The notes under the pieces were generated by a model, which was not told the origin of the DNA, ran no database searches, and was given only the letters and a program-made list of their open reading frames with translations. From Tautonia marina (GTDB lineage: Bacteria; Planctomycetota; Planctomycetia; Isosphaerales; Isosphaeraceae): a DNA stretch of 57,836 bases. Location of the stretch: contig NZ_WEZF01000030.1 in NCBI RefSeq assembly GCF_009177065.1, positions 1-57,836 on the forward strand, read 5' to 3'. Position numbers and translations under genes: made by a program. Below, in pieces: positions 35,800-47,281 of this stretch. How positions within the stretch are numbered: position 1 is the stretch's first letter; each line of letters starts with the position of its first letter.

Positions 35800-37263
35800 T
35801 CACTGGCCCGTGTCATCGTCGCCGCGGAGGCTTTGAACAACCGAGGCTTGCCATTCGGCCAGGGCCTCGCTCATCGCGGCGACGCGGTCGGGGTGGTCGT
35901 CGGCCAGATCATCGGATTCGGTCGGGTCGGTGTCGAGGTCGTAGAGGGAGAAGGTGATCGAGCCGTCTTGCTGGGGAATCCGGTGGAGCTTCCACGGGCC
36001 GTCGATCCAGGCGGCGTGCCCGGGGAGTTCCTCACCCGATTCGAAGGTGGCGATCAGGCGCTCGGCCGGTTCGGTGGGAAGCGGGGGGAGTTCCTCGGGC
36101 AGCGGCTCGCCCGCCTGCTGGGCGGCAAGGTGGGCGGCCATGATCTTGGCGCTCGGGGTGCCTCGGCCGGGGCTGGGGGCGACCCAGAAGCCCATCGGTT
36201 TGTGACGAGCCTCCATCTCCCCGGCGATCAACGGGGCCAGGCTCACCCCGTCGAGCGGCCGATCGGGCTCAGGGTAGGAGACGCCGGCCAGCTCGATCAC
36301 GGTGGGCAGGATGTCGACCGTCCCACCTGGCAAATCGCTGATGCGTCCCTCGGGGATCGCCTCGGGCCATTCCAGGATCGTCGGCACGCGGAGGCCCCCT
36401 TCCCAGAGCTGGCCCTTGCGGCCTCGCAGTCCGCCGGTCGAGCCGGGACCGTTGTTCTGGGGGCCGTTGTCGCTGGTGTACCAGACGAGGGTTTGATCGG
36501 CGATCCCGCGCTCGCGGAGGCTGGCCCGCAGGCGGCCCATGGCGGCGTCGATGCCGGTGATCTCGCCGTAGTAGTTCTTGAGCCGGTTGGTCAGTTCGAG
36601 GTCGTCGTACGGCTCCCTCGTCTCGGGGGTCGCCTCGTGCGGCGTGTGCGGCGAGCCGAACCAGACGACCGCCAGGAAGGGGCGATCGGCGGCGGTTGCC
36701 TTGTCGATGAAGTCGAGCGCGGCCTCGACCGTCACCATCGAGCTCTCCCCTTCGAGCGGGACCGCCGTCCCTTCCCGGCTGAGGATCGGGTCATTCTCGA
36801 AGAAGTTCGGGGCCGACAGCCACGTCTCGAACCCGCTCGACCCGGGGTTGTTCGCCCCGTCGGGCCGGACCGAGCCGAGGTGCCACTTGCCGAAGTGCCC
36901 GGTGGCGTAGCCGGCGTCTTGCAGCAACTCGGCCACGGTGATCTCCTCGGGCCGAAGCTCGAATCCCCAGGAAAAGCAGCCGAATCGGACCGGATGCCGA
37001 CCCGTCAAGACGCTCCCCCGCGTCGGCGAGCAGACCGGCGCGGCCGTGTTGAACCGATCGAGCCGCAGGCCGACGGCGGCCATCGCATCCAGGTTCGGCG
37101 TGTGCGGGATCGGGTCGCCGTTGTAGCCGACGTCGCCGAACCCCTGATCATCCGCCATGCAGAGGATGATGTTCGGCCGCCTGGGCAGCTCGGCCGCCGG
37201 GGCAACGGTCGCGACACTCAGGAGCAAGAACAAGAGCAGGGGGGGGACTCGCAATCGGATCAT
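35800..37263 (-). CDS. Secreted type I sulfatase
   Basis: This 487-residue enzyme has a signal peptide (MIRLRVPPLLLFLLLSVATV, cleavage after APA) and a formylglycine sulfatase domain. The signature C78-S-P-T-R (within APVCSPTRGSVLTGRH) provides the Cys that is converted to formylglycine by a separate enzyme. Metal ligands fit D38 and D39 (MADDQGFGDVGYNGD) and the DN of WYTSDNGPQNNG. GHFGKWHLG is the second family signature. Substrate is a sulfated polysaccharide or steroid-like ester, which cannot be told here; marine and soil planctomycetes carry many paralogs. The ATG at 37263 starts the signal; the frame extends to 37854 without plausible coding. Confidence 0.95.
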   Translation of the reverse strand: MIRLRVPPLLLFLLLSVATVAPAAELPRRPNIILCMADDQGFGDVGYNGDPIPHTPNLDAMAAVGLRLDRFNTAAPVCSPTRGSVLTGRHPVRFGCFSWGFELRPEEITVAELLQDAGYATGHFGKWHLGSVRPDGANNPGSSGFETWLSAPNFFENDPILSREGTAVPLEGESSMVTVEAALDFIDKATAADRPFLAVVWFGSPHTPHEATPETREPYDDLELTNRLKNYYGEITGIDAAMGRLRASLRERGIADQTLVWYTSDNGPQNNGPGSTGGLRGRKGQLWEGGLRVPTILEWPEAIPEGRISDLPGGTVDILPTVIELAGVSYPEPDRPLDGVSLAPLIAGEMEARHKPMGFWVAPSPGRGTPSAKIMAAHLAAQQAGEPLPEELPPLPTEPAERLIATFESGEELPGHAAWIDGPWKLHRIPQQDGSITFSLYDLDTDPTESDDLADDHPDRVAAMSEALAEWQASVVQSLRGDDDTGQ

Positions 37264-37735
37264 CGGTGCCTCTCCTCGGCCGTCCGGTCGTCTCGTTCGA
37301 TGGATTCGTGCCCCACTTTCCCGGACCCTGGCCCCGAAGGCAAGCCTCCCGCCGTCTCGGCCTAGGGTGGAGACGGGAGCAGTTCCGACCCCGTCGATCG
37401 TCCCGCAACGAGGGCCGCGCCCGTCATGCCTCGTCGCCGCCAGGGTGAGTCGAGTCGTACCGCTTCCCGTCGAAATGGGTGGGATCCGGGTGCCCCGGGT
37501 CCCGCGCCGCGGACCCCGGGGCACTCGCCGAAAACCGTGAACCCACCGATGAAGACTGGACGCGGCACGACGCGAGGGACCTTGCAATCGTCCTGCTCGG
37601 GAGGAGGGCGTCGTCTTGAGCTTCGTGCCCGCATCGGGAGATTTTTCCGATCCGATCCCAAAAACTCCGGACGCGCCGGGCGTCGAGCGGCCAGTACGAT
37701 GGTGACAGGGCAAACCGTAAGGGGGGGCGGAGTCG
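37264..37735. other. Divergent region with a long hairpin before the sigma-factor gene
   Basis: These 472 bases hold promoters for the sulfatase and sigma-factor genes. A hairpin at 37490-37524 pairs GTGCCCCGGGTCC with GGACCCCGGGGCAC, with one bulged C and an eight-base loop. A related hairpin lies after the sigma gene at 40735-40755. No coding frame of good quality is present. Confidence 0.5.
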
Positions 37736-40696
37736 ATGAGTCGGAGGATCACCGGCAGGGCGCTGGAGGACCTGGGCAAGGTCTTCACGGTTGGGGCGAT
37801 CGGCCGCCTGAGCGACGGCGAGTTGCTCGCCCGGTTCCTCGACCGCGACGGCAAAGGCGCCGAGGAGGCGTTCGCCGCCCTGGTCGAGCGGCACGGGCCG
37901 ACCGTCCTGACGGTCTGCCGGCGGATGCTCGGCGATACGCACGAGGCCGACGACGCCTTCCAGGCGACCTTCCTGGTACTGGCCAGGAGGGCGGCGTCGG
38001 TTTCCGGGCGCGATCGGGTGGGGAACTGGCTCTACGGCGTGGCGCTCCGGGTGTCTCAGGAAGCCCGGCGTCGGGCCGATCGGCGGCGGCGTCGCGAGCG
38101 TCTGCTCGGGGACGAGGCTGGCTCGATCCCGTCGAGCTTCGCTGTTGCTCCCGACCCATCGGTCGAGGAACTCCGCCGGCTCATCGTCGAGGAGTTGGCC
38201 CGGCTTCCCGACCGCTACCGTGGCCCCTTGCTCCTCTGCGACCTCGAAGGCCGCTCCCGCCGCGAGGCCGCCGACCGTCTCGGCCTCCCCGAAGGCACCC
38301 TCTCTAGCCGCCTTGCCCGCGGCCGCGATCTCCTCCGAGGCCGCCTCGTCCGTCGCGGCCTCGCCCCCTCAACCTCGATCGCGGCGATGGGCCGACCGGC
38401 GTCGGCGTTCGTGCCCGCCTCGTTGGTGCGGCGGTCGGTCGAGGCGGCCTGGCTTGCAACCACTCGCGGTCTTGCCGCCGGGACGGTCCCGGTGGCGGTT
38501 TCCGGACTGGCAGGAGAGGTGCTCAGGACCATGTTTGTCTTCAAGCTGACGGCAGGACTGGCAGCGGTAGGCCTTGCCGCCACGGTGGCGTTTGGCGCAG
38601 CGTGGGCCATCGGCCCGCGAGAGCGTGGGCCGGTGGTCGAGGAGTTGGCGGTCGATGCGCTGACGGTCGAACCGCCCTCGATCGCGAAGAACGAGCCAAC
38701 CGAGGGCGAGTCGGGGGACGGACCGATCGCCCGGGGGGTGGTGGTTGATGAGGAAGGTCGGCCGGTCGAGGGGGCGGAGGTGACCCTGGTCATTCCCGGT
38801 CGGTCATACGTGATCGGAAAGACGGATACCGAGGGGCGGTTCGCGATGAACGCTCAGCGCCCGAACCTGGGAGAGCGGCCAGTGGTGGCCTCGATCGACG
38901 GTGGGAGAAGGCTTGGGTACGCGGTCTACGACTGGCAAAAGGCCCGGGATGGGGAGGAGGAGCTCTTGCGGGTCGTCCTCAAGCCCAGTCGAGAGGTCAT
39001 TCTCCGGGCCGAGGACGGGGAGGGCCAGCCGGTCGAGGGGGCGACGGTCGAGGTGATCGCGGACCTGACCTCGATCGTCCAGGCCCAGACCGACGAGCAG
39101 GGGCAGGCCGTCGTGCGGTTGCCGGCCGAGGCGCCGATCACCTGGGCCTTCGGGTTGAAGTCGGGCATCGGGTTCGACTACGCCGAACTGAGCCCGAGGG
39201 AAAACCAGGGGATTCCGGCCACGGAACTGCCGGATGAGGTCGTGCTGGCCCTCGACGGCGCCCGGACGGTGCAGGTGAAGGCGGTCGATCGGCGCGGCGA
39301 GCCGCTGGAGGGGATCCGCGTCTACACCTGGGTGATCGCGAAGCCGGGTAAGCGGGACAGCATCAACCTGGGCGGGGCCAGAAGCGTCTTCAAGGTCACG
39401 GGGGCAGACGGGATCGCCTCCTATGACTGGATCCCGGCCGAAACGACTCAGCCGATCTCGGTCATGAACGGCGCCGAGGATTACCATGCTCCCGACCGGG
39501 CCTTGATCGCGCCGGAGCTGCCGTCGGGCGAGACGGTCGTCGCGGAATTCGTGCGGAAGGGGGCGATTCGGGGGCGGGTGACGCACGCCGACGGATCGCC
39601 AGCCGGTGGGATCACGATCCTCGCGTCCGGCATGGGTTCCGGGTTCGACAACAGTTCGCGGCTCGAAACCCGGACGGAGGAAGATGGGACCTACGAACTC
39701 GCGGCAGAGGCGACGCAATGCTACATGATCGGCGTGGTGGACGAGATCTGGGCGGCGCCGAGCCGAGCAGGGATCATCGTGGAGGAAGGGGAGGAGGTCG
39801 AGGGCATCGACTTCACCCTCAGCGGGGGGGCGATCATCCGGGGGACGGTGACGCTCGGCCCGGACGATTGGCCGGTGCCGGATGCGAATGTGTACCTCCG
39901 CGAGGATGGCGGGATGATGCCGGAAGGTCTGAAAAGAGAGGGTGATATCTTCCTCCGTGAAGTTAGCCTCGGCCGATGGGCGAGGACCGATGAACGGGGG
40001 GCCTTCCGGGCCCGGGTCGGCCCGGGGACCTATTCCGTGGGGGGCCTGGCACGGACCGACATGCGCACGGTGGAGGCGGTCGAGGGGGGCGACTATGAGG
40101 TCGATTTCCGGATGCCGAGGCCCGAGCGCGGGCCGCTGGCCGGCCGGGTCGCGCTGGCGTCCGACCCGTCGCAAGGGGTCGAGGGGGCCATCATCGACGC
40201 GACTCCGACCGAACCGCAAGGGCTTCGCATGATGACCGTCACCAGCGGACCCGACGGCCACTTCAAGGCCGATCGCCCGCTCGATCGCCTGGAGATCATC
40301 GCCCGGAGCGCGGACGGGACGCTCGGCGGCATCATCACGAGCCCGGCCAACGAGAAGGAGGTGACGATCCTGATCGGCCCGCTGGCCTCGGCGACCGGGA
40401 TCGCACTGGACGAGCAGGGCGAGCCGATCGCGGACCAGGATCTGGACTTCGTGAGGGTCGTTCGGCCGGAGGGGTACACGGGCAGCGCCCACAGGGCCAT
40501 CCCCGGCCCGAAGGTGACGACCGACGCCGAGGGACGCTTCACGATGGGAGGGATGGTGATCGGCTGCCCGTACAGACTCTCCTTAAAGCGGGGCAACGGT
40601 TACCATCCGCTGATCGAGTTCACGCCGACCGAGCCGGGCCTGACGGATTTGGGCACGCTCAGGCTGGAGGAATCACGGACTCGCGTTCGGGAATAG
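37736..40696 (+). CDS. ECF sigma factor fused to a membrane helix and carboxypeptidase-regulatory repeats
   Basis: The 986-residue product joins a transcription factor to an extracytoplasmic sensor-like region. Residues about 28-95 are sigma-70 region 2 (ARFLDRDGKGAEEAFAALVE, TVCRRMLGDTHEADDAFQAT). Region 4 spans about 150-210 (LPDRYRGPLLLCDLEGRSRR, LGLPEGTLSSRLARGRDLLR). A hydrophobic helix at about 266-292 (LTAGLAAVGLAATVAFGAAW) follows, then six or seven CarboxypepD_reg/Spa-type beta repeats, for example GVVVDEEGRPVEGAEVTL (about 334) and GRVTHADGSPAGGITILASG. Typical ECF sigma factors have about 180-200 residues. This architecture is known in planctomycetes, and release by proteolysis is the likely control. 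No anti-sigma gene is adjacent. The ATG at 37736 has GGAG very near. Confidence 0.88.
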   Translation: MSRRITGRALEDLGKVFTVGAIGRLSDGELLARFLDRDGKGAEEAFAALVERHGPTVLTVCRRMLGDTHEADDAFQATFLVLARRAASVSGRDRVGNWLYGVALRVSQEARRRADRRRRRERLLGDEAGSIPSSFAVAPDPSVEELRRLIVEELARLPDRYRGPLLLCDLEGRSRREAADRLGLPEGTLSSRLARGRDLLRGRLVRRGLAPSTSIAAMGRPASAFVPASLVRRSVEAAWLATTRGLAAGTVPVAVSGLAGEVLRTMFVFKLTAGLAAVGLAATVAFGAAWAIGPRERGPVVEELAVDALTVEPPSIAKNEPTEGESGDGPIARGVVVDEEGRPVEGAEVTLVIPGRSYVIGKTDTEGRFAMNAQRPNLGERPVVASIDGGRRLGYAVYDWQKARDGEEELLRVVLKPSREVILRAEDGEGQPVEGATVEVIADLTSIVQAQTDEQGQAVVRLPAEAPITWAFGLKSGIGFDYAELSPRENQGIPATELPDEVVLALDGARTVQVKAVDRRGEPLEGIRVYTWVIAKPGKRDSINLGGARSVFKVTGADGIASYDWIPAETTQPISVMNGAEDYHAPDRALIAPELPSGETVVAEFVRKGAIRGRVTHADGSPAGGITILASGMGSGFDNSSRLETRTEEDGTYELAAEATQCYMIGVVDEIWAAPSRAGIIVEEGEEVEGIDFTLSGGAIIRGTVTLGPDDWPVPDANVYLREDGGMMPEGLKREGDIFLREVSLGRWARTDERGAFRARVGPGTYSVGGLARTDMRTVEAVEGGDYEVDFRMPRPERGPLAGRVALASDPSQGVEGAIIDATPTEPQGLRMMTVTSGPDGHFKADRPLDRLEIIARSADGTLGGIITSPANEKEVTILIGPLASATGIALDEQGEPIADQDLDFVRVVRPEGYTGSAHRAIPGPKVTTDAEGRFTMGGMVIGCPYRLSLKRGNGYHPLIEFTPTEPGLTDLGTLRLEESRTRVRE

Positions 40697-40734
40697 GTCA
40701 TCTCCTCGTTCCAAACCCATACGTGCCGGGGTGG

Positions 40735-40755
40735 CCGGGGTCGTGGCGACCCCGG
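40735..40755 (+). terminator. Compact hairpin after the sigma-factor fusion gene
   Basis: CCGGGGTCG and CGACCCCGG pair perfectly around a TGG loop, 38 bases past the stop at 40696. No T-run follows. It is the best terminator candidate for this gene, and resembles the hairpin at 37490-37524. Confidence 0.5.
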
Positions 40756-40850
40756 GCGAGGGAGGACGGCTTTCAGCGACGGCAGGCCTTCGGTAGGATG
40801 GTCGAGGAGGGGAACACTCCGACCCAATTTCGTCGAATCGAAACAGGCCA

Positions 40851-41066
40851 ATGACGAACCTGACCCCGGAACTTCTGCGAGCCATTCGCGAGGCGGGCGA
40901 CGAGCCGGTGCGGCTGGAAGACCCCGACTCTCGCGACCGATACGTGCTGATCCCGGCCGATCAGTATGACCGTCTGCTGGCTCTGGCCGACGCTCGCGAG
41001 CGTTCCGCCTGGCTCGACCGATCCGAGGAGGCGGCCAAAGCCTGGATGCGCGAGAATCCTTACTGA
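40851..41066 (+). CDS. Small antitoxin-like protein upstream of a PemK/MazF-like gene
   Basis: A 71-residue protein contains LEDPDSRDRYVLIPADQYDR, then LLALADARERSAWLDRSEEA. The central pattern, with a strand then ypaeqYd.l, is that of Phd-like or MazE-like antitoxins of planctomycetes and cyanobacteria, in which the C-terminus neutralises the toxin. It ends two bases before the ATG of the toxin-like gene, so the pair is one unit. The DNA-binding half is minimal, so it may not autoregulate. The ATG at 40851 is chosen because other starts shorten the N-terminal helix; no strong ribosome site is seen. Confidence 0.72.
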   Translation: MTNLTPELLRAIREAGDEPVRLEDPDSRDRYVLIPADQYDRLLALADARERSAWLDRSEEAAKAWMRENPY

Positions 41067-41067
41067 G

Positions 41068-41412
41068 ATGAGTCCAGGCGAGATTTACTGGGCCGTGTTC
41101 GAGGATGTCCCGGCCCACCCGGTCGTCATCGTCTCCCGAGAGGAGCTGAACCGGGGCGAGTCGGTCGTCGCGGTGATCGTCACCTCCGCCCACTTCGAAC
41201 GTCGGGCTAAATTGCCGAACTGTGTGCCGATCTCAGCCGGATCGTTCGGGCTGGGCAAGGATTGCGTCATCCAGGCCGAGTCGATCTTCTCGATCCGCAA
41301 GTCCCACCTCGACCTCGAAGCCGGGCCGCTTGGAACCCTCGACGATCTGACCTTCCGTGACGTGATCCGGGCGATCGGCCATGTCCTCCGCTCCGACTGC
41401 GAGCCCGAGTGA
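41068..41412 (+). CDS. PemK/MazF-family toxin-like protein
   Basis: This 114-residue protein begins MSPGEIYWAVFEDVPAHPVV, the usual start of PemK/MazF proteins (G-[DE]-[IV]-[YW]). It continues VIVSREELNRGESVVAVIVT, CVIQAESIFSIRKSHL and LGTLDDLTFRDVIRAIGHVL, matching the SH3-like barrel and the closing helix. In active family members a conserved Arg and Ser/Thr cut RNA. Here IVSREELN supplies the Arg. The ATG at 41068 is one base past the antitoxin TGA. Toxicity cannot be read from the sequence. Confidence 0.82.
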   Translation: MSPGEIYWAVFEDVPAHPVVIVSREELNRGESVVAVIVTSAHFERRAKLPNCVPISAGSFGLGKDCVIQAESIFSIRKSHLDLEAGPLGTLDDLTFRDVIRAIGHVLRSDCEPE

Positions 41413-42067: not shown

Positions 42068-42381
42068 GGGCAATTGCTCCCAAAGGGGCCAAAGGCACGA
42101 GGGGAAGAACGAGCGTCCCGAAACCATCCTGGGGGCCGATCGGTTCCACCTCGGCCGAGGACGCTGCGTACATTTGTATCCTATCGGACGAGCGAGTGGG
42201 AAAAAATCATCCAAAACGACCTCAACCCGTGGATCGGGAAGGGGTGACCGATCCGTCGAAACCGACTCGCGAATGCCTTGCATGGCAGGATGAATTCCGG
42301 ATCGCTCGGACGTAGACTTGATTTTCACGGGACGGTCAACCACGGCCCCCCTGAGTGAGTGCAACGGAAGGACACCAACGG

Positions 42382-43653
42382 ATGAGCTGGCTCGCGATTC
42401 ACTGGAACGACGATCAGCAGGAGGCGGCAACGACCGTGCTGCAACGCGCCGAGGGGTTGCTCGCGAAGTTCCCGGTGAAGGCGGCCGCGGACGTGGCCGA
42501 CGAGCTGGAGCGGATCGGGTTCGAGACGGTCGAGCGCGTGGAGGAATTACGAGCCCTGATCGAAGGCCCCGACTCCGATCCGCCCGTGGCGCTCCTGCTG
42601 TTCGAGGACCGGGCGATCGGCGGGGGGGGAGAGGTCGATGCCCTGATTCAGGACTGCCTGGCCCGGAACATCGCCCTGGCCCTGAACCCGGCCACGGCCG
42701 AGGCGGTGTTCGAGGCGCTGCGGGCCAAACGGCGGGCCGTGGTGATCTTCAACCCCGTGTGCGGTTCCGGGAACGCGGAGAAAGAACACGCGCGGATTCT
42801 CGAACTGCTCGAACCGTCGATGATGCTCGACGTGAAGGAGACGACGCCCGAGGTCGAGGCCGGCTCGCTGGCCCGAGAGGCGCTGAAGGCGGGGGTCGAT
42901 CTGGTGATCGCCGCCGGAGGAGACGGGACCGTCTCCGAGGTGGCCGAGGTGCTGACCGGAACCGACGTCCCCCTGGCGATCATTCCGCGAGGGACCGCCA
43001 ATGCCCTGGCGGTCGCCTTGTTCGGGCCGCAACTGTATCTGGACCCGATCGGCAGAAGCTGCGAGGCGATCCTCGACGGCGTGACGCGGACGATCGATAC
43101 CGTGAAATGCGGCGATCATCAAATGCTCTTGCTCGCGGGAATCGGGGTTGAGTCGGGGATGGTCGAGCGGGCCGAGCGCGACCTGAAGGCACGCTTCGGA
43201 GTGCTGGCGTATCTGGTCGGCGGTTGGGAAGAAATCAAGGCGCAAAACGAATTTGACGTGGAGCTGGAGTGCGACGGCAAACGGCATCGGTTCCGGAGCG
43301 GGAGCGTGGTGGTGGCCAACGCGGCCCCTCCCAGCTCGGTCTTCGCCCAGGGCAGCGGCACACCGATCTATGACGACGGATTGCTCGACGTCACCACGCT
43401 TGTGGATGTGAAAACCCCCTGGGAAGCCGTGCAAACGATCATGCAACTGTTCCAGGCCGGCCTGACGCAGCAGGCTCCCGAGGAGCGGGTCATCACCATG
43501 CGGGCCGCCAGGGTCCGGGTCGAAACGAATCCGCCGCAGACGGTCGCCATTGACGGTGAACTGGTCGGCCAGACGCCGGTCGAGTTCGAGGTGGTGCCGG
43601 CCTCGCTTAAAGTCATTGTGCCGAAGCACGACGATCGGCGGCAGGCGGAGTGA
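42382..43653 (+). CDS. Diacylglycerol/lipid kinase-family protein with methylglyoxal-synthase-like front segment
   Basis: This 423-residue protein has a DAGK catalytic domain from about residue 119: VVIFNPVCGSGNA, then the nucleotide loop VIAAGGDGTVSEVAE (about 175-189), IPRGTANALAVALFG, and the C-terminal GSGTPIYDDGLLDVTTLVDV. Members phosphorylate lipids such as diacylglycerol or ceramide. Residues 66-112 resemble the C-terminal part of methylglyoxal synthase (EVDALIQDCLARNIALALNP, then ATAEAVF). The first half of that fold, with the phosphate loop, is not visible, so synthase activity is unlikely. A related fusion is known from cyanobacteria. The ATG at 42382 has GGAAGG before it; a GTG at 42355 is an alternative. 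Confidence 0.85.
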   Translation: MSWLAIHWNDDQQEAATTVLQRAEGLLAKFPVKAAADVADELERIGFETVERVEELRALIEGPDSDPPVALLLFEDRAIGGGGEVDALIQDCLARNIALALNPATAEAVFEALRAKRRAVVIFNPVCGSGNAEKEHARILELLEPSMMLDVKETTPEVEAGSLAREALKAGVDLVIAAGGDGTVSEVAEVLTGTDVPLAIIPRGTANALAVALFGPQLYLDPIGRSCEAILDGVTRTIDTVKCGDHQMLLLAGIGVESGMVERAERDLKARFGVLAYLVGGWEEIKAQNEFDVELECDGKRHRFRSGSVVVANAAPPSSVFAQGSGTPIYDDGLLDVTTLVDVKTPWEAVQTIMQLFQAGLTQQAPEERVITMRAARVRVETNPPQTVAIDGELVGQTPVEFEVVPASLKVIVPKHDDRRQAE

Positions 43654-44428: not shown

Positions 44429-45277
44429 TCAGAAGGAGGACGGCACAACGCGGCGGCCTTCAACCTCGGTGTCGGGAATCCCTTCCGGCCGAGCGTCGCG
44501 CTCGCCGAGCTGGGGAGCTTCAAAGGGAATCGTCTCGTAAGGAATCTGGGAAAGCAGATGTGAAAGACAGTTGATCCGCGCGGCCTTCTTGTCGTCGGAA
44601 GGGACGATCCACCAGGGGGCGGCGGGGTGATCGGTCCGGCGGAGCATCTCCTCGTACGCCTGGGTATAACGCCACCAGCGCTGATACGATGCGATGTCCA
44701 TGGGACTGAGCTTCCACTGGCGGACGGGGTCGCCGATGCGCCGCTTGAAGCGTTTGCGTTGCTCGTCCTGGCTGACAGTGAGGAAGTATTTCAGCAGGAT
44801 GATGCCGTCTCTCACGAGGTATTGCTCGAACATCGGCACCTCGTGCAGAAATCGCTCGATCTGTTCGTCGGTGGCGAAGCCCATCACCCGCTCGACCCCA
44901 GCGCGGTTGTACCAGCTTCGGTCGAAGATGACGACCTCGCCTCCCGAGGGAAGATGCTGCATGTAACGCTGGGCAAAGACCTGGGTTTTCTCCCGATCCG
45001 ACGGCGCCGGTAAGGCCACCACGCGGAAGACCCGAGGACTGACGCGCTCGACGATCCTGCGAATCGTTCCCCCTTTGCCGGCGGCGTCTCGGCCTTCGAA
45101 CACGAGGATGATCCGCGCGCCGGTCGATTTCACCCAGCGTTGCAAATGGGAAAGTTCGACCTGAAGCCGCTCCAGCTCCCGATCATAGCGGGCGTTGCGC
45201 TCGGCCTTCGACTCGGCAGCGTGGTCGGGGCGGTCCTTCTTCGGTTTCCCCTTGGGCACGGTTGGCTCCCGGATCAT
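44429..45277 (-). CDS. ppk2: Polyphosphate kinase 2 (PPK2)
   Basis: This 282-residue cytoplasmic enzyme moves phosphate between polyphosphate and nucleotides. Walker A is E61-GRDAAGKGG70 and Walker B is F118-DRSWYNR125. The lid module KRRIGDPVRQWKLSPMD lies at about 178-194 and is followed by PWWIVPSDDKKAARINCLSH. Single-domain proteins of this size usually belong to the class that phosphorylates nucleoside diphosphates, but class I against II or III cannot be settled by eye. The N-terminal 30 residues are charged and variable. The ATG at 45277 fits the family; shorter starts would cut the first helix. The gene is monocistronic by layout. Confidence 0.94.
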   Translation of the reverse strand: MIREPTVPKGKPKKDRPDHAAESKAERNARYDRELERLQVELSHLQRWVKSTGARIILVFEGRDAAGKGGTIRRIVERVSPRVFRVVALPAPSDREKTQVFAQRYMQHLPSGGEVVIFDRSWYNRAGVERVMGFATDEQIERFLHEVPMFEQYLVRDGIILLKYFLTVSQDEQRKRFKRRIGDPVRQWKLSPMDIASYQRWWRYTQAYEEMLRRTDHPAAPWWIVPSDDKKAARINCLSHLLSQIPYETIPFEAPQLGERDARPEGIPDTEVEGRRVVPSSF

Positions 45278-45472: not shown

Positions 45473-47281
45473 TCAGTTATTGTCGTTGTTCTTGGTGGTG
45501 TTCGACGAGTTGCCCGGCTGGGTGTTGCCCGGGGCAGACTCTCGGGGGCTGGTGCCGGAGCCGAGAATCGTGGTTGGCTCGACCGAGATGGCCGTGGTCG
45601 AGAGGAACGAACTGTCGAGATCAGCTCGGGTACTGACCTGACCAGACGTGTTGGCCTTGGCGGTCAGAATCCATCGCAGTTCTTCGCCCGGAGCAATCGT
45701 GTCGACCGCGCCGAAGCTGACCTTCCGGCCGTCGGCGTTGGCGTCGGTCGGGCCTTCCGCGTCGACGTATTCCAGCCCCTCGGGCAGGGTGACGACGATC
45801 TCAACATCGTCATCGTGGCCGGTGCCCTGGTTGACGACGGTCACGACGTACTCGACGTTCTCGCCCTGCGGAACCTGGTCGTTGCGGTCGACCAGCGCGA
45901 GCAAGAGGGCCGGCAACGTGAGGATCTCCGCCTCGGCGACGGTCTGGGCGGCGGCTCGCTGACGAATCTCCTCCGGCTGATCGTCGGCGGCGCAGAGCGA
46001 CGAAGCGACGGCGACGTGACGGAGCATCAAGGCTTCGGCGTCACCGCTTTGCTCATCGGCACCGCGATCGCCATAGCCCTGCGGGACCTGCGAGAGGTTC
46101 ACGCTGAAGCTGACGGCGGTTTCCTCGCCCGGTTCGAGGCGGCCGATGTCCCATCGCAGGGTGTCGTCGTCCTGTTCGGGAGCAACGCTGTTCAGGCTGG
46201 TCCGGCTGGTGCGGACAAGCCGGGTGCGGTCGTCGATCTCAACCTCAAGGGTCGTGTCGATGGCCGGCCCGTCTCCCTGGTTGCGGACGGTGACGCGGTA
46301 GGTGCTCGGCTGGTCCGTATACTGGACCTCGGGGCCTTCAATGCTGGCAGTCAGGTCGGCCGCGACGATTCGGGTCGACGGACGCTTCGACTGGGCTTCC
46401 AGGTCGTCGGACGTCTTGGCAACCGCCCGGCTGCTGAACTGGCCAAGCTGGGTGGCGCGAATGTCGGCGGTGAACTCCTTGGTTTCACCGGCCCGCAGGT
46501 CCCCCACGTCGTGCCGGATGGTGCGCTCGCCGCTGGCAAGGGTCAGGCCCTCGGGCAGCTCGTCGGTCACAACCACGTCGCTCACGTCGGCCGAACCGGG
46601 ATTGCTCACCGTGTAGCGGAAACGCAAGGGCTGACAGATATCTGCAACCTCAGGAACCGCCTTGGTCACTTCAAGGTCCGGCTTGACGAACCGGGTGACG
46701 AGGCAAACCGTCGGCGTGTACGAAACGCGGAAGCAGACGCCGGCCGTGCCTTCCGACTCGGCAATGGCTCGAACGCGCACCGTCTGCGTTTCTCCCGGCT
46801 TCAGCTCGCCGATGCGGACGGCGCCGTCGTTGCCCCGCCGGGCTCGCTGGCCCTGCTGGTTCTGGCCCTGCTGCCGCTGGCGCTGCTGAGCCTGCTCGCC
46901 CTGGCGCTGCCGGGCTTGCCGGGCCTCGCCCTGCTGGTTCTGGCCCTGTCCCTGCTGTTGCGTCTGGGCCCCTTCAATTGAAACGTCGCCCGTTTCATCG
47001 TGGTTAATGCGAACGTCTTCAAGCGTCAGGTTGTCGGTCAGGTTGCGGACGGTCAGCTGATATTCGAAGGGCTGGCCGACCCGGACCTCGCCGGGGGCCT
47101 GAGCCCGAATCATCAAGAGGCTGCTCGACTGCTCACCCGTTGGGAAGTAAAGGTCAACATTGCTCGATGCTTGACCCTCCTGCGATCGCTCTTGCGCCTG
47201 CGAGTACGCGGTCGGGCCAAATGCGGTCGCCGCGAGCAGAGCGGCCAGGCAGGATGTCAAATGTCGGGTTTGGAATGTCAT
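45473..47281 (-). CDS. Exported DUF11/CARDB-repeat protein with Gln/Arg-rich insert
   Basis: A 602-residue protein starts with a signal peptide (MTFQTRHLTSCLAALLAATA, cleavage near AYSQ). Three or more DUF11-type domains follow: VRVGQPFEYQLTVRNLTDN (about 68), CQPLRFRYTVSNPGSADVSD (about 215), STYRVTVRNQGDGPAIDTTL (about 318) and NVEYVVTVVNQGTGHDDDV (about 475). An insert at about 105-150, rich in Gln, Arg and Gly (QTQQQGQGQNQQGEARQARQ), interrupts the first domain. These proteins are typically surface or cell-wall linked. The C-terminus is Asn-rich and has no LPxTG-like signal. A small lipoprotein gene precedes it on the same strand, 203 bases upstream. Confidence 0.9.
   Translation of the reverse strand: MTFQTRHLTSCLAALLAATAFGPTAYSQAQERSQEGQASSNVDLYFPTGEQSSSLLMIRAQAPGEVRVGQPFEYQLTVRNLTDNLTLEDVRINHDETGDVSIEGAQTQQQGQGQNQQGEARQARQRQGEQAQQRQRQQGQNQQGQRARRGNDGAVRIGELKPGETQTVRVRAIAESEGTAGVCFRVSYTPTVCLVTRFVKPDLEVTKAVPEVADICQPLRFRYTVSNPGSADVSDVVVTDELPEGLTLASGERTIRHDVGDLRAGETKEFTADIRATQLGQFSSRAVAKTSDDLEAQSKRPSTRIVAADLTASIEGPEVQYTDQPSTYRVTVRNQGDGPAIDTTLEVEIDDRTRLVRTSRTSLNSVAPEQDDDTLRWDIGRLEPGEETAVSFSVNLSQVPQGYGDRGADEQSGDAEALMLRHVAVASSLCAADDQPEEIRQRAAAQTVAEAEILTLPALLLALVDRNDQVPQGENVEYVVTVVNQGTGHDDDVEIVVTLPEGLEYVDAEGPTDANADGRKVSFGAVDTIAPGEELRWILTAKANTSGQVSTRADLDSSFLSTTAISVEPTTILGSGTSPRESAPGNTQPGNSSNTTKNNDNN

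Follow-up and report, generated by a model that had tools for sequence, protein, structure and literature searches.

A Tautonia marina sigma factor, likely of an ECF57-type variant, with a predicted membrane tether and beta-repeat ectodomain very probably reads its own promoter

IutY of Pseudomonas putida is an ECF243 hybrid of an extracytoplasmic function (ECF) sigma factor and an anti-sigma factor, and is cut by Prc and RseP according to the available part of PMC5411451. In the available part of the review PMC8999054, the ECF57 group has two conserved cysteines (in sigma2 and in sigma4) and WD40-type extensions, with WP_015250107.1 of Singulisphaera acidiphila as an example; the review assigns some members to protein interaction and takes the two cysteines as a hint of a strong conformational change. 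Here we analyzed a 57,836-nucleotide stretch of DNA from Tautonia marina (contig NZ_WEZF01000030.1), referred to as the window, in which one gene encodes an ECF sigma factor, a linker, a membrane helix, and beta repeats in a single protein of 986 amino acids (aa). The open literature that could be consulted, partly as extracts and with the 2021 classification and the planctomycete papers of 2012 and 2020 outside its scope, described neither a membrane cassette nor an own-promoter code for ECF57. Parts of the findings may already be known.

The gene was an intact open reading frame (ORF) started by ATG. Its parts were assigned as follows, with AF2 denoting an AlphaFold2 model.

37736..40696, + strand: the gene, an ECF sigma, linker, membrane helix, and beta-repeat protein (ORF, Pfam, homology)
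37811..38086, + strand: sigma region 2, residues 26-117, holding C61 (Pfam Sigma70_r2; AF2; fold match to region 2 of sigma-E)
38177..38359, + strand: sigma region 4, residues 148-208, holding C168 and the recognition helix with E186, S190, S191, and R195 (Pfam Sigma70_r4_2, alignment, fold match)
38360..38530, + strand: conserved cytoplasmic linker, residues 209-265, with a predicted helix at 228-244 (column conservation in the alignment; AF2)
38531..38611, + strand: single membrane helix, residues about 266-292 (hydropathy; spacing kept in 118/120 cassette proteins; AF2 helix 253-291)
38693..40693, + strand: predicted extracytoplasmic part, residues 320-986, with about seven beta-repeat units (Pfam CarboxypepD_reg/Big_1; low-confidence beta-rich model; secreted-looking and M56-linked homologues)
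Repeat units within it, with boundaries set by eye: residues approximately 331-416, 417-508, 509-607, 608-697, 698-799, 800-881, and 882-986

In Pfam, Sigma70_r2 matched residues 49-117 (45.7 bits, cut-off 24), Sigma70_r4_2 matched residues 148-198 (42.7 bits, cut-off 25.7), and the C-terminal part matched CarboxypepD_reg in four stretches (102 bits) as well as Big_1. Sigma region 3 had no Pfam match in the protein, which leaves regions 2 and 4 without 3, the arrangement of an ECF factor. The NCBIfam family TIGR02937 (sigma70-ECF) matched with 75.2 bits (cut-off 42.9), and the best 25 of 70 NCBIfam families were generic sigma families only. The strongest hydrophobic segment was formed by Kyte-Doolittle windows starting at residues 262-277, and the best one with at most one charge started at 274. 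The original prediction had placed an ECF sigma factor, a membrane helix, and six or seven beta-repeat domains in one chain, joining signal sensing to promoter recognition. ORF, Pfam, hydropathy, and AF2 support this arrangement and with it the joining of the two functions, and about seven repeats were counted by eye from the recurring G-x-V-x-D-x-x-G-x-P-x-x-G-A. The ectodomain model was beta-rich with a periodicity similar to the repeats, at low confidence (pLDDT, the predicted local distance difference test, of 52 from 2 sequences).

Motif discovery with short-word pairs in the regions upstream of sigma-fusion genes, without a prior model, gave one motif, whose matrix was grown in six rounds. 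The site in the window lies at 37663-37704, and its predicted elements span 37669-37696.

37669..37676, + strand: predicted -35 element GGACGCGC, with an A-rich stretch just upstream (de novo motif, split-half test, covariation with the protein's own sigma4 residues)
37691..37696, + strand: predicted -10 element CCAGTA (motif matrix; -10 columns covary with sigma2 residues)

The matrix exceeded the 99% shuffle threshold in 86/119 upstream regions, compared with 3/119 on the reverse strand. When the set was split at random six times, 27-39 of 60 held-out regions matched and 0-3 did so on the reverse strand; all sequences had contributed to the seed pattern, which makes the held-out halves less than fully blind. 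Among 346 control genes of the same loci (347 minus L061, itself a sigma fusion), eight were above 9.7 bits and one was above 15. Over 692 kb, both strands included, 54 of the 58 sites above 15 bits were upstream of sigma fusions, a descriptive count given that the matrix was trained on these. Scored with a subgroup matrix from which the window had been excluded, its site reached 28.9 bits, and the next site in the window 10.5. No sigma-70-type promoter was found in 37200-41000. A single promoter common to all paralogues was rejected, since -35 and -10 variants differed between subgroups. Computationally, the gene has an autoregulatory ECF-type promoter, a feature that is common in ECF factors and not strictly defining.

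Bases of these promoters covaried with residues of the proteins encoded behind them. Among 81 pairs, limited to aligned sites scoring 12 bits or more, the strongest links were between -35 columns and sigma4 residues 175, 186, 190, 191, and 195, and between -10 columns and sigma2 residues 90, 91, 94, 97, 105, and 109. At position 191, serine went with G in 53/56 cases, glycine with T in 20/20, threonine with A in 2/2, and alanine with C in 2/2. R195 was paired with G in 73/74 cases, and K190 with C in 19/19. By alignment with SigW, residues 191, 195, and 190 map to positions that contact -34, -35, and -31 in the crystal structures of SigW and sigma-E, as given in the available part of PMC6713349. 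On a careful tree, from which covarying columns were excluded and to which linker and helix columns were added, residue 191 and its base changed nine times each, and six independent contrasts on supported branches were all concordant (p 0.031). On a quick tree, residue 191 had a single independent contrast on supported branches, as did residues 190 and 195, for which only this tree was used. Because own-promoter bases covary with own DNA-contact residues, with concordant tree contrasts, we concluded that the sigma parts of these proteins very probably read their own promoters. Together with the intact regions 2 and 4, the covariation also upholds the earlier assumption that sigma function is retained.

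We compared the window protein with 119 others (n=120 in total), of which 85 came from 80 loci of a profile scan favouring close cassettes and the rest from other genome-search loci and regions. In 118/120, the window protein included, a membrane helix followed region 4 at a median distance of 65 aa (10-90% range, 56-68). One exception (L187) had a hydropathy of 1.47 against a threshold of 1.5. The other, L071:6422-10126 of Singulisphaera sp. GP187, was interrupted by a single in-frame TGA immediately behind region 4, with linker, helix, and ectodomain continuing in the same frame; the split might reflect a natural form made as two proteins, decay of the gene, or an error in sequencing. The net charge was more positive before the helix than after it in 87/118, and less so in 19/118. 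The genome of T. marina itself (7.07 Mb, 97.8% complete) served as a less biased survey, and 5/41 of its Sigma70_r2 genes had the cassette with a transmembrane helix. Against the cassette sigma profile, these five scored 197 bits or more, and the next gene scored 91. A 441-aa gene (C35:3975) had a borderline hydrophobic segment without a cassette match, and a 1387-aa frame at C14:119072 was a shadow frame at a locus whose sigma ORF has 219 aa. Mean entropy in an 86-row alignment was 1.4 bits in sigma2 and sigma4, the best conserved parts, versus 2.2-2.6 in the linker and transmembrane helix. The 105 complete tails, by comparison with BLAST, fell into 49 clusters, and their Pfam matches included CarboxypepD_reg (13), AhpC-TSA (9), PD40 (7), CusF (5), WD40 (3), and DUF2807 (3). 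Sigma regions, linker, and helix are thus a constant cassette with varied ectodomains.

The ectodomain of another sigma fusion (L058:1408-3822) reads by eye like an HlyD/RND periplasmic adaptor. Sigma-fusion genes also stood in a row, four at L158 and two each at L140 and L129, suggesting expansion by local duplication.

Among the matches listed, at least 43/45 genomes of the same family matched the 986-aa protein at E 1e-10. The best relative among them was co-linear over residues 1-981 with 45% identity, and twelve further listed matches (34-43%) spanned sigma and repeats, some with only part of the repeats. Therefore, the architecture is no chance product. Many other listed matches covered no more than residues 1 to about 300; a further set was confined to the repeats. 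The closest relative, found twice (L061 and L103), was one and the same protein of Singulisphaera sp. GP187. In a search of the phylum 92/149 genomes matched at 1e-15, which is not a count of cassettes, because many matches covered the sigma part only.

Homologous repeats were found behind N-termini judged by eye to be signal-peptide-like (L073-L078) and behind an M56/BlaR1 domain (L079, L080), so the repeats of the window protein are probably extracytoplasmic. The original prediction had called them extracellular, in agreement with these homologues and with the positive-inside charge bias. A repeat-only, secreted-looking ORF (L062:4681-7347, with its real start inside the listed frame) was also seen in one relative, directly upstream of a sigma fusion on the same strand.

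The AF2 model from 86 sequences had a pLDDT of 88 and a predicted TM-score (pTM) of 0.81. The linker helix 228-244 was modeled with a pLDDT of 94 at 231-240 and 78-81 at its edges, and residues 253-291 formed one helix. Over sigma2 and sigma4, the model differed from anti-sigma-bound factors by 7.1 Å for CnrH (152 aa), 8.5-8.7 Å for SigW, 9.3 Å for RpoE/NepR, and 13.6 Å for BldN, versus 23-29 Å for RNA polymerase-bound sigmas aligned over both domains. As a modeling result, this superposition would fit a closed resting form. C61 and C168 were both present in 84/86 aligned rows.

We consider it probable that the protein is an ECF57-type tethered sigma factor, closed at rest, cleaved on a signal, and transcribing its own gene. 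The sigma factor would be anchored by its own single helix, with the beta-repeat ectodomain of about 660 residues outside. At rest, the linker helix and the tether would keep sigma2 and sigma4 compact and incompetent for RNA polymerase, as the model suggests. A change sensed by the ectodomain, perhaps through its repeats, or damage to it would lead to a cut near the membrane helix by site-1 and site-2 proteases, and about 270 residues would be set free in soluble form, both in analogy to IutY. Once free, the sigma would bring RNA polymerase to GGACGCGC-N14-CCAGTA, first at its own gene, which has computational support, and the result would be a self-amplifying receptor. By the same analogy, proteolytic release seems the likeliest mode of activation. 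Release had originally been proposed for the first 210 residues; since region 4 and the membrane are separated by a conserved linker about 57 residues long, the freed piece would instead comprise about residues 1-270. Site-2-protease homologues were present in the genome of T. marina, as in all 14 control genomes. In the available part of PMC8567305, ECF paralogues of Tuwongella immobilis are reported in Triton- and SDS-soluble fractions, which is compatible with membrane attachment.

Several points weigh against this explanation. The cleavage step is borrowed from IutY, and a membrane-held sigma could act without cleavage. The part of PMC8567305 just cited counts WD40-bearing ECFs of Tuwongella as predicted cytoplasmic proteins. 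The compact arrangement was modeled only for the chain with its linker. The closest relative has serine at position 61, and only 3/5 of the cassettes in the T. marina genome have both cysteines, so the C61/C168 pair is not essential. No site above threshold was found in 33/119 upstream regions, and of the cassettes in the T. marina genome three had clear sites (24-26 bits), one was marginal (L095, 9.7 bits), and one had none (L094). Allowing up to two mismatches, the T. marina genome held 38 sites versus 169 for the reversed control; a search of 45 genomes gave 9 exact matches versus 16 in the control, and a search of eight genomes gave 38 sites versus 101 for the reversed control. The target search was strict, and weaker targets may be missed.

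By count the pattern shows no enrichment, and the argument therefore depends on the placement of the sites. The exact pattern occurred once in the T. marina genome, at the gene itself. When 30 of the 38 sites there were scored, the gene's own site reached 36 bits, with a matrix that included the window site, and the next reached 10. ORFs of at least 150 aa overlapped 27/29 of the other sites; the window's own site overlaps an ORF too, so that this criterion is uninformative in G+C-rich DNA. Six of the nine exact matches in the 45 genomes were just upstream of sigma fusions, and three had no sigma gene nearby. Among 32 scored loci (30/38 of the eight-genome search and two of the 45-genome search), seven exceeded 28 bits, all of them upstream of sigma-fusion genes, and the next scored 18.4; six of the seven were in the training set of the matrix, and the window site (28.9) was left out of it. 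In the ortholog group of the window protein, the own promoter was the only strong site among those scored.

A second promoter class was searched in eight planctomycete genomes with up to one mismatch, and gave 13 sites versus 4 in the control. Seven of the 13 were before sigma fusions, and three more were before secreted-looking ORFs (G8/CEMIP-type; LTXXQ and PepSY matches below cut-offs). As for the remaining three, the downstream frames looked spurious at L234 and L236, and L246 had no clear gene. Since sites of this class also precede non-sigma genes, relatives can have further targets. A spacing of N15 had been tried for this class, gave one match in the eight genomes, and was replaced by N14. 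At L242:1566-3029, L243:839-1465, and L244:738-1463, ORFs for secreted-looking proteins begin 65-67 nt downstream of the base at which a promoter-like site starts, and it is possible that these ORFs are further targets of a relative's sigma.

An unlikely alternative, though the strongest competitor of cleavage, is a conformational switch in a sigma factor that stays bound to the membrane: the ectodomain signal would move the helix and linker, or change a C61-C168 latch (disulphide or metal), and the sigma would work there uncleaved. The conservation of both cysteines in 84/86 rows, the conformational change suggested for some ECF57 members in the available part of PMC8999054, the linker helix predicted with high confidence, and the lack of a protease among the five neighboring genes scanned would all suit such a switch. 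A tethered sigma would, however, have to reach a promoter on the nucleoid, and C61 is missing in the closest relative. Moreover, IutY, also a chain of sigma and transmembrane helix, is named in that part of the review as the sole single-chain sigma with experimentally characterized proteolytic activation. Still less is to be said for the view that what counts is the ectodomain itself, as an envelope or binding protein, and that the sigma is chiefly a dosage controller, freed by loss or cutting of the ectodomain to make more of the same protein. Such a controller would fit the sole exact promoter match in the genome being at the gene itself, the position of all seven sites above 28 bits upstream of sigma fusions, and the CusF-like, thioredoxin-like, and other domains in the ectodomains of relatives; but the target search covered strong sites, and the second promoter class has sites before other genes too. 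Decay of the sigma part to a membrane anchor without promoter activity, in favor of which we found nothing but the large number of paralogues that could allow it, is highly improbable given Pfam scores above the cut-offs, the best conservation in sigma2 and sigma4, and the covariation with the own promoter.

Upstream, a sulfatase gene (35803-37275, - strand) is divergent from the sigma gene, and downstream a 71-aa ORF is followed by a PemK/MazF-like ORF (40851-41412 in the window), probably a toxin-antitoxin pair. The absence of an anti-sigma gene alongside, as originally noted, holds for these adjoining genes, and a TonB-dependent receptor is likewise absent from them. No other window ORF of at least 100 aa at 25-55 kb recurred in 10 loci of relatives. 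Related hairpins had also been proposed to flank the gene, which did not hold up: the motif common to both was no commoner in the window than in shuffled sequences, and folding was better than in shuffles for 37470-37545 (z -2.7) but reached a z of only -1.5 for 40710-40790. Neither hairpin had a terminator-like character, and the first, being upstream of the predicted promoter, is outside the predicted mRNA. The hairpins were therefore rejected as a part of the system, to which they are probably irrelevant. Further genes in the window code for a diacylglycerol/lipid-kinase-like protein (42364-43650, + strand), polyphosphate kinase 2 (44432-45277, - strand), and a DUF11 repeat protein (45476-47281, - strand).

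For ECF57-type sigmas, the literature examined, some of it as extracts, gave no tested mechanism, and in our protein the extension resembles an ectodomain tethered to the membrane. A simple residue-to-base code seems to let every member recognize the promoter of its own gene, which offers a route to target prediction for many uncharacterized planctomycete sigma factors. With the own promoter as a reporter and the named residues as targets of mutation, the class becomes directly testable, and it also supplies natural examples of sense-and-respond loops made of a single gene. A broader idea, which we regard as doubtful but worth stating, is that the planctomycete cassette is a plug-in receptor chassis, in which unrelated ectodomains and private co-evolved promoters form near-orthogonal self-amplifying loops; the sigma of the window group would then serve essentially its own gene, with the ectodomain as both sensor and output.

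The 986-aa protein is likely an ECF57-type variant. It shares with ECF57 a C-terminal extension of the sigma factor and one cysteine each in sigma2 and sigma4, and WD40-type tails occur among its relatives. The extension itself differs, having CarboxypepD_reg-like repeats and no Pfam match to WD40-type families, and the available part of PMC8999054 sees in such extensions a protein-interaction part and is silent on any fixed membrane helix. Like IutY, it has a sigma factor, one transmembrane helix, and an extracytoplasmic part in a single chain; unlike IutY, it had no FecR-like match in Pfam at E up to 1, and its neighbors are a sulfatase and a toxin-antitoxin-like pair rather than a TonB receptor. 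The actinobacterial ECF48/52/53 fusions such as SCO4117 of Streptomyces coelicolor also carry C-terminal membrane helices and extracellular domains, according to the same part of PMC8999054, whereas a zinc-finger anti-sigma domain had no Pfam match at E up to 1 in our protein. With BlaR1-type M56 proteins the likeness lies in the ectodomain, since the M56 domain of relatives carries the same repeats (L079, L080); the membrane part of those proteins is an M56 peptidase domain, and its place is taken here by a sigma factor.

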